A DNA stretch of 64,000 nucleotides from Nocardia sp. NBC_00403 (GTDB taxonomy: Bacteria; Actinomycetota; Actinomycetes; Mycobacteriales; Mycobacteriaceae), in contig NZ_CP107939.1 of NCBI RefSeq assembly GCF_036046055.1, forward strand, positions 186,001-250,000, written 5' to 3'. Positions 52,561 to 53,886 of the stretch are shown one piece after another. The notes below the pieces were generated by a model, which did no database searches, had not been told where the DNA came from, and worked only from the letters and a program-made list of their open reading frames with translations. Numbering within the stretch: the first letter of the stretch is position 1; each line of letters starts with the position of its first letter. The position numbers were made by a program, and so were the translations under genes.

Positions 52561-53423
52561 ATCGGTAGCGTCACCTCGGAGACGAATGCATCGCGAACCC
52601 AGGCGACGAACTGGTCCCACGCGCCGGTGACCAGCGCGATGCCGACCGCAACAAGCAGGATGCCCCCGATGATCTGGATGGTGCGGGAATTGCGGCGCAG
52701 CCACCCGACGCCGCGCAGCGCGCTCGCCGAACCGAAGGCGAGGACCACGAACGGCAGGCCGAGGCCGAGGCAGTAGGCAACGATCAGCGCCACCCCGCGC
52801 ACCGCGGTCGTCCCGTCGGTGCCCGCGGACACCGCCATCACACCGGACAGGGTCGGCCCGAGGCACGGCGTCCAACCCAGCGCGAACACCGCGCCGAGCA
52901 GCGGCGCGCCCGCGATGCTGGTCAGCCTGCGCGGCTCCATCCTGGTGTCGCGCTGCAGCGCGGGCACCAGGCCGATGAACACCAGGCCCATCAGAATGGT
53001 GACCACACCGCCGATGCGTTGCAGCAGTTCACGATTCACGTTCAGTGTGTGGATCACGCCGAAAACCGTCGCGGTAGCGAGCACGAACACCACGGTGAAG
53101 CCGGCGACGAACAAACCGGCCGCGCCCGCGACCCGCATCCGGCCACTGCGCGCCACTTGCGGTGCGGACACTACGGCCCGATCGGCAACGGCCACCGAAC
53201 CGGACTTACCCCCGCGACCTTTGGCTTCGGCAGGGGTGACAGGCGGCGCCTCGGCACCGACCAGCCCCGCCAGATACGACAGATAGCCGGGTACCAACGG
53301 CACTACACACGGTGAAGCGAACGACACGAGTCCCGCCAGCATGCAGGCACCGAGCGCAAGCAGCAGCGGTCCGGTCGCCGCGGTCTGCTGGAACGACTCC
53401 CCCACTCCGGCAAGCACGATCAC
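52557..53423 (-). CDS. ccdA: Thiol-disulfide electron carrier CcdA
   Basis: The 288-residue protein has six membrane helices and the paired redox cysteines in SFASPCVVPLVPGYLSYLAG and LGWTPCLGPTLSG, diagnostic of CcdA. It passes electrons from cytoplasmic thioredoxin to ResA for reduction of apocytochrome c. A hydrophilic loop of about 40 residues (APPVTPAEAKGRGGK...) separates helices 1 and 2. The GTG at 53423 overlaps the stop of the small paralogue 2 gene. Confidence 0.95.
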   Translation of the reverse strand: MIVLAGVGESFQQTAATGPLLLALGACMLAGLVSFASPCVVPLVPGYLSYLAGLVGAEAPPVTPAEAKGRGGKSGSVAVADRAVVSAPQVARSGRMRVAGAAGLFVAGFTVVFVLATATVFGVIHTLNVNRELLQRIGGVVTILMGLVFIGLVPALQRDTRMEPRRLTSIAGAPLLGAVFALGWTPCLGPTLSGVMAVSAGTDGTTAVRGVALIVAYCLGLGLPFVVLAFGSASALRGVGWLRRNSRTIQIIGGILLVAVGIALVTGAWDQFVAWVRDAFVSEVTLPI

Positions 53424-53656
53424 GCCGACTCCGCTCCTCGCGGATCGCCAGTGGTCGCCTGCTCGGCAGCCGGCACGGCGGAGACCGTCGGCGCCTCGTC
53501 GCGCGCGACATCCCGCAAGGATTCCGCCGCGGCACTGCGCGGCACCATCGCGACACCGGCCCAGCGGTCATCGACCCGCCAGGTGCCACGGACGAGCCGG
53601 GCAGCCTGCCGCGGACGACAGGCGCGGCCGCCGCGCATCCGGCGATCGCGGTTCAC
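53420..53656 (-). CDS. Small Arg-rich protein, paralogue 2, in the cytochrome c operon
   Basis: A 78-residue protein starting at GTG 53656: VNRDRRMRGGRACRPRQAAR, then LVRGTWRVDDRWAGVAMVPR and SAAAESLRDV, with a variable, acidic C-terminus. Over a 40-residue core 34 positions match the neighbouring paralogue 1. It has one Cys and no signal peptide or membrane helix, and no known family is recognised. Both junctions (with paralogue 1 and ccdA) are GTGA overlaps, so it is translated as part of the operon. Role unknown, presumably in thiol or heme handling. Confidence 0.82.
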   Translation of the reverse strand: MNRDRRMRGGRACRPRQAARLVRGTWRVDDRWAGVAMVPRSAAAESLRDVARDEAPTVSAVPAAEQATTGDPRGAESA

Positions 53657-53886
53657 GACTGCACCTCCTCGGCCTGCTCCGCGTCGCGGCGCATCGGCAC
53701 CTGCCGTTCGGTGTCCGTCGGCGCCGGGTCGACCTCGGCCCAGCTGACATCCATCATCGATGCCGCCGCGGCGCTGCGCGGCACCGAGGCCACGCCCGCC
53801 CAGCGATCGTCGACGGTCCATGTTCCACGGATGAGTCGGGCGGCCTGCCGCGGGCGACAGGCGCGCGGGCTGCGGGTGCGGTTCAC
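53653..53886 (-). CDS. Small Arg-rich protein, paralogue 1, in the cytochrome c operon
   Basis: A 77-residue protein starting at GTG 53886: VNRTRSPRACRPRQAARLIR, then GTWTVDDRWAGVASVPRSAA and ASMMDVSWAEV, with a charged tail. It lies between resA and paralogue 2 with 4-nt overlaps on both sides. Two tandem copies with a conserved core and diverged tails indicate an in-operon duplication. The M. tuberculosis order Rv0526-Rv0527 has, as far as I know, no such genes between resA-like and ccdA. Function unknown. Confidence 0.82.
   Translation of the reverse strand: MNRTRSPRACRPRQAARLIRGTWTVDDRWAGVASVPRSAAAASMMDVSWAEVDPAPTDTERQVPMRRDAEQAEEVQS

Follow-up and report, generated by a model that had tools for sequence, protein, structure and literature searches.

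Gene organization at the resA-ccdA junction

The window, as we call the whole 64,000-nucleotide stretch of Nocardia sp. NBC_00403 DNA that was analyzed, carries a cytochrome c maturation operon on its minus strand (Table 1). The order of genes on that strand is phosphoglycerate-mutase-like gene, resA, copy A, copy B, ccdA, resB and ccsA, where copies A and B are small genes of a family that we call F1. A sequence-only reading of this DNA had described tandem paralogues of 77 and 78 residues between resA and ccdA, joined to their neighbours by 4-nt GTGA overlaps and sharing 34 identical residues over a 40-residue core. Both genes were found at that place, GTGA was seen at each of the three junctions (resA/A, A/B and B/ccdA) with a GAGG-type stretch a few bases upstream of each, and our by-eye comparison of the translations returned the same count of 34 out of 40. 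The repeated DNA of the two copies, D1, is 149 nt long, 76% identical and 239 nt apart. In the list of frames, the copy B frame is also contained within a longer open reading frame of 243 aa. We take the gene after resB to be ccsA from its place in the operon and its sequence, and the gene upstream of resA to be phosphoglycerate-mutase-like; an LAGC sequence near the N terminus of ResA is presumably lipobox-like.

Table 1. Features of the cytochrome c maturation locus in the window, and loci of other Nocardia genomes with F2 or a longer spacer at the same junction.
Feature	Position	Strand	Remarks
Presumed phosphoglycerate-mutase-like gene	54512..55210	-	Upstream of resA
resA-like thioredoxin-fold gene	53883..54515	-	Immediately upstream of copy A; Redoxin and AhpC-TSA matches
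Copy A (F1 small protein, 77 aa)	53653..53886	-	GTG start overlaps resA stop by 4 nt
Copy B (F1 small protein, 78 aa)	53420..53656	-	GTG start overlaps copy A stop and stop overlaps ccdA start, 4 nt each
Direct repeat D1, inside copy A	53733..53881		76% identical to D1 of copy B
Direct repeat D1, inside copy B	53494..53642		76% identical to D1 of copy A
ccdA	52557..53423	-	Immediately downstream of copy B; DsbD_TM 26.4 bits, slightly below the Pfam cut-off of 27.1, the name leaning also on operon context
resB/ccsB	50842..52560	-	Next in operon; ResB family
Presumed ccsA	49868..50845	-	Gene after resB; named from place and sequence
F2 loci			L069, L071, L072, L076, L077, L082, L083, L095, L096, L098-L103, L106, L109, L112-L115, L119, L124, L257
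Spacer loci, 67-238 nt			L075, L089, L092, L117, L123, L125, L128, L131, L153, L170, L173, L175, L179

Distribution of F1 in Nocardia

Copies A and B carry the core ACRxRQ...W...DDRW.G.A.VPRS and lie between resA and ccdA, the two features by which F1 is recognized here. Whether homologues always occupy this position was a point that the sequence-only reading had put to a profile search. Of 150 Nocardia genomes, 53 were matched by a profile of 12 F1 proteins, and each of the 53 carried F1 between resA and ccdA; ccdA itself was matched in all 150. When the junctions were sorted by content (149 genomes, to which G036, with F2, was then added), F1 was found once in 51 genomes and twice in 2, a second family, F2, in 24, and a third, F3, in 3. 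The remaining 70 genomes contained no recognised gene at the junction, with gaps of less than 60 nt in 57 of them and of 67-238 nt in 13. The pathway can evidently do without F1, since 97 of the 150 genomes lack it. The two-copy genomes are that of the window and G025, which we take to be N. australiensis; Nocardia sp. KC 131 is likely another such strain, in that the database proteins P0002 and P0010 come from contigs of equal length and bear neighbouring locus numbers. Duplication, presented earlier as part of the description of these genes, is not a general trait of the family: the tandem copy is rare.

In 47 of the 53 genomes the first F1 start and the resA stop overlap by 4 nt; the offset is -1 in one genome and +61 to +72 in five. 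Between the last F1 stop and the inferred ccdA start, the 4-nt overlap was present in 23 genomes and absent in 30, of which 28 had an offset of -26 to -59 nt, one of -2 and one of +25.

A scan of named genomes with two short peptide patterns recovered 39 loci, all titled Nocardia. Database searches with wider alignments, both of which confined scoring to the approximately 8000 candidates sharing most words, gave 44 F1 and 19 F2 proteins. Several of these entries are nameless; where a genus was named it was Nocardia, except for P0021, one name of which reads Streptomyces gardneri beside a label beginning Tax=No (a Nocardia label). Eight entries of 54-58 aa (P0037-P0044) look like F1 genes with the start called too far downstream, suggesting that the family is probably under-annotated.

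F1 outside Nocardia and elsewhere in the genomes

Among 301 genomes of the family, the F1 search yielded 14 matches at E<=0.01, comprising 6 in Nocardia and 8 weak matches in other genera (E 0.001-0.007). Four of the eight had loci, and neither resA nor ccdA was present within the stretch examined around them. Of the other four (G222, G248, G273 and G318), the two compared by contig, G222 and G248, have the weak match and the listed ccdA matches on separate contigs. We also read the junction itself in other genera, using 38 junctions from 28 genera, drawn one per genome from 102 genomes with a ccdA match, some of which hold more than one ccdA. In 37 of the 38, the distance from the resA stop to the inferred ccdA start was at most 99 nt, too short for F1 or F2; the other, L264, had no resA found and hence was unread. 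The sequence-only reading had stated that no such genes are known from the matching mycobacterial operon; none of the junctions read in other genera had one, and the insertion looks specific to Nocardia. Within what was searched, F1 appears so far only in this genus, and the simplest reading would be that resA and ccdA ancestrally adjoined with no gene between them.

In the window genome, a search at E<=1 returned 8 matches, namely copies A and B and 6 weak ones (E 0.04-0.84); the best of the six, L003, was considered as a paralogue and on reading looks like chance. Three other F1-bearing genomes gave matches away from the junction. The match in G032 (E 1.2e-5) is a frame antisense to a gene that we take to be LysR-like, and that in G124 is a short unrelated frame; both were taken as chance. 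The one in G106 has three stops inside.

F1 genes are under purifying selection

The ratio of synonymous to non-synonymous change had been proposed as a check on whether the small frames are genes. Over 55 sequences the F1 core had a mean pN/pS of 0.25 (1473 of 1485 pairs, those with pS <= 0.05 being excluded), and its entropy at codon positions 1, 2 and 3 was 0.31, 0.29 and 1.00. The block compared spans 41 codons, the first of them nine ahead of ACR; in copy A it extends one codon beyond the start. We next compared F1 with its neighbours over the same 1378 pairs, using one F1 copy per genome, the last 150 codons of ResA and the first 58 of CcdA. The pN/pS was 0.24 for the F1 core, 0.69 for the F1 tail, 0.155 for ResA and 0.075 for CcdA, indicating that the core is clearly constrained, somewhat less than ResA, and that the tail is loosely held. 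For the 35-residue segment that runs from immediately ahead of ACR as far as VPRS.A, the three commonest forms are identical in 16, 13 and 9 genomes, respectively. Each window copy was also compared with its counterpart in G025, giving dN/dS of ~0.06 for copy A and ~0.07 for copy B, which points to purifying selection on both; between copies A and B the ratio was ~0.23, all three ratios being taken from computed distances.

This evidence shows copies A and B to be true protein-coding genes. The view that they are instead spacer, or an element acting at the DNA or RNA level, draws on their shortness, the lack of a known family and the frequency of long alternative frames in such G+C-rich DNA; against the codon-position signal, the core pN/pS of ~0.24-0.25 and the intact frames in 53 genomes, it is scarcely credible. 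The sequence-only reading would have counted the frames as non-genic had homologues been missing from all other Nocardia, or had the core been conserved only as DNA, with stop codons in relatives; homologues are present in 53 of the 150 genomes and their frames are intact, so neither condition refuted the genes. Its further claim, that the genes are translated with the operon, is supported to the extent that both are intact and probably co-translated.

Properties of the F1 protein

F1 is an undescribed family, matching no described family searched in Pfam, NCBIfam or PDB. Copies A and B had no Pfam or NCBIfam family at E<=1, none of 36 F1 homologues had a Pfam match, no sequence-profile match to the PDB was found at E<=10, and PHROGs gave nothing for either copy; of six proteins scanned against PHROGs, a single one gave matches, two weak ones (E 0.2 and 0.28) that are not credible. 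The protein is built of a conserved basic head, a possible beta-hairpin and a variable acidic tail, with mean charges over 55 ORFs of +7.9 for the head and -6.2 for the tail. In an AlphaFold2 model of poor confidence (pLDDT 54.7), residues 17-19 and 22-24 form strands. No hydrophobic segment was found, the best 19-residue hydropathy mean being 0.74 in copy A and 0.50 in copy B; neither copy has the single transmembrane helix of the CydX/CcmD-type small membrane subunits, and no signal-like N terminus was apparent by eye in F1.

The sequence-only reading had offered the conserved cysteine as a hint of a thiol- or heme-related factor. The cysteine is indeed invariant in all 36 rows of the F1 alignment (from which the 8 start-truncated entries lacking this region were kept out), in the context C-R-P of ACRPRQ. 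However, it is a single cysteine in a protein with no family match, not a CXXC in a thioredoxin fold. Cys-Pro is a heme-regulatory motif, and this dipeptide does not occur in copy A or copy B. Moreover, cysteine is absent from the conserved head of F2 (19 rows), which weakens a thiol role. The residue stands as a conserved feature, and the thiol or heme function attached to it stays a guess. The other suggestion of the sequence-only reading, an RNA or membrane-surface partner, would suit the basic head with its charge of about +8.

Other genes at the same junction

F2, defined by the pattern MRSLRSRGVRRYGATRPPRGVRAEVLV.S.LGSW.L, is a small basic family of 65-85 aa at the resA-ccdA slot in 24 of the 150 Nocardia genomes. 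Of 23 genomes compared, 17 have the F2 start on the resA stop and 6 have it at +31; in all 23 the F2 end falls on the start of ccdA. The F2 core has a pN/pS of 0.07, lower than that of F1 (135 pairs, from the 17 of 23 sequences fitting the core pattern), and F2 has no Pfam match. The two families are alike in their slot, basic head, variable tail and a hairpin in a weak model, which for F2 (AlphaFold2, pLDDT 60.5, poor) shows two short head strands with block means near 85. They differ in that F2 lacks both the head cysteine and the DDRW...VPRS core, has a tail that is not acidic (+0.9 on average) and gives no profile match to F1. In two F2 genomes (L289, L290), ~85 nt separate resB and ccsA, genes that overlap or are no more than a few bases apart in the other 19 operons compared.

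F3 is an ORF of 174-271 aa in three of the 150 genomes (L126, L149 and L152), with conserved ends (MRT.RATPCA... and REHRPRR.LAPRP...EKRCV.GRRAR). Its pN/pS across the three sequences was 0.44-0.60 at the ends and 0.72-0.97 in a loosely constrained middle. The 13 junctions with 67-238 nt and no recognised gene could be raw material for such genes, or remnants of them.

Possible function of F1

CydX is encoded within the cytochrome bd oxidase operon, and CcmD is a small membrane subunit of the System I heme exporter whose gene lies in a cytochrome c maturation operon. F1 resembles CcmD as a small accessory gene inside such an operon, but the F1 operon (resA-ccdA-resB-ccsA) is of System II and the F1 protein lacks a hydrophobic segment. 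CydX is described (PMC4325964, PMC6005532) as a small protein associated with an enzyme complex of respiration, consisting of a 37-residue single hydrophobic helix; F1 is likewise small but is basic and without such a segment, and we claim no sequence relation. TorE and NapE are described as small helpers of respiratory systems (PMC6134056); they are membrane proteins of Proteobacteria, whereas F1 has the composition of a soluble protein and has been found only in Nocardia. A report on Rhodococcus equi (PMC7063783) discusses Rv0526 and CcsX and does not contain the word 'ccdA', and a report on Nocardia genomes (PMC12153302) does not contain 'cytochrome'. In the open-licence literature, to which the search was confined, no paper was found on Nocardia with cytochrome c maturation or ccdA, or on small proteins with ccdA, resA and Actinobacteria.

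Our leading explanation, which we hold tentatively, is that F1 is a cytosolic accessory protein or regulator of CcdA/System II. Its product would stay in the cytosol, so a partner is to be sought on the cytoplasmic face of the membrane. CcdA, the carrier of reductant across the membrane to ResA, is the nearest candidate. The basic head, with its tryptophan and arginines and its possible beta-hairpin, may dock from the cytoplasmic side onto CcdA, or onto a CcdA/ResB-CcsA assembly at the membrane, and so adjust either how much reductant reaches ResA or how the machinery is put together; the acidic tail, which is variable, would be flexible and matter less. The tandem in the window may stem from the GTGA-to-GTGA unit having been duplicated locally as a whole, before this strain and N. 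australiensis parted. Consistent with an accessory role are the position of F1 (53/53), its overlaps with the resA stop (47/53) and the ccdA start (23/53), the core pN/pS of 0.24, the low dN/dS of both window copies against those of G025, the two strands modelled in the head and a basic head in a protein with no hydrophobic segment. Against it are the absence of F1 from 97 of 150 genomes, the lack of the ccdA 4-nt overlap in 30 of 53 and the poor structure model (pLDDT 54.7).

Other roles must be weighed against this one. F1 might act in the cytosol in a process unrelated to cytochrome c (e.g. at the ribosome, at the nucleoid or under stress), with the operon serving it only as a steady promoter, and its restriction to one genus, its absence from the same 97 genomes and a CcdA with no visible adaptation (21 sequences, by eye) would fit such a role. 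Nevertheless, we regard it as rather unlikely, given the constant place of F1 in all 53 genomes and the lack of a convincing copy elsewhere, the off-junction matches that were read (L003, G032 and G124) looking like chance. More doubtful still is an RNA-binding autoregulator, the head of which would bind the operon mRNA and set the ResA:CcdA ratio through re-initiation at the GTGA overlaps. The arginine-rich head (+8) and the location of F1 at the coupling site suit this idea, but tight coupling is not kept in the 28 of 53 genomes in which the last F1 stop is offset from the inferred ccdA start by -26 to -59 nt without overlap, and no known RNA family was found at gathering scores in 52400-54700. 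The preferred partner, CcdA, looked alike by eye whether F1 was present or not (21 sequences) and showed no obvious change with F2 either; binding by F1 is therefore unsupported by co-variation.

Within CcdA, the first cytoplasmic loop (topology inferred; window 53138-53250, approximately residues 58-96) differs in length from one Nocardia species to another, in a protein that is otherwise strongly conserved. A comparison of loop length with F1/F2 presence gave one independent pair on the starred branches, too few to tie the two together, with loops that pass the end of the stretch counted as lower bounds.

Origin of the junction genes

The genes of System II cytochrome c maturation, an old pathway, show strong conservation in these genomes, and a young gene seems to have joined this pathway. 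A new gene within a core operon, placed at a translational-coupling overlap and under selection, offers a clean natural case of an orphan protein joining an old machine. The case lends itself to testing, since among relatives the slot may be empty or may hold one copy, two copies or another family.

Whether F1, F2 and F3 share an origin bears on how this happened. The slot may be a cradle for new genes, in which each of the three had its own origin; they would then have no more than position and charge in common, and might either have converged on one job or each do a different one. This reading concerns origin and is compatible with any of the functional ones, so the likelihoods given for them need not add up; we consider it somewhat unlikely. 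It draws on the absence of profile similarity between F1 and F2 (hhalign probability 0.15%), on the 38 junctions from 28 other genera, 37 of which leave no room for such a gene, on the unrelated 67-238 nt spacers in 13 Nocardia genomes and on F3 as a distinct ORF with conserved ends in three genomes. Against it, F1 and F2 have a faint apparent resemblance in sequence. Column shuffles (12 of 27 F1 heads and 8 of 16 F2 heads) scored as high in 2 of 500 trials, or in 1 of 300 with F1 shuffled instead, in two conflicting registers, and pairwise shuffles were mixed (13, 84, 14 and 2 of 1000 as high). The evidence for selection on F3 comes from three sequences. On a weak tree of ResA and CcdA, F1 needs 3-4 changes and F2 one, yet neither F1 as one clade (p-AU 0.84) nor F1 and F2 as one clade (p-AU 0.63) was rejected, so that one origin of F1, and even one origin of both with deep divergence, is possible; the 42-residue F1 core has too few columns for a gene tree of its own. 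A bolder version, in which the junction is a recurrent birthplace where at least three unrelated small basic families (F1, F2 and F3) arose after Nocardia split, took over the coupling overlap and became selected, lineage-specific cytosolic partners of CcdA, we think unlikely.

We also considered the N terminus of ResB (PRQ...LVRNTWR) as a relative of the F1 head and rejected it as chance, since the ResB frame ranks 7th, 18th, 30th and 93rd of 349 window frames for four F1 types. In a post hoc shuffle test of this resemblance, which arose from looking at the sequences, at most 1 of 200 shuffles scored as high for three of five F1 types, compared with 14 and 38 of 200 for the other two and 63 of 200 for F2.
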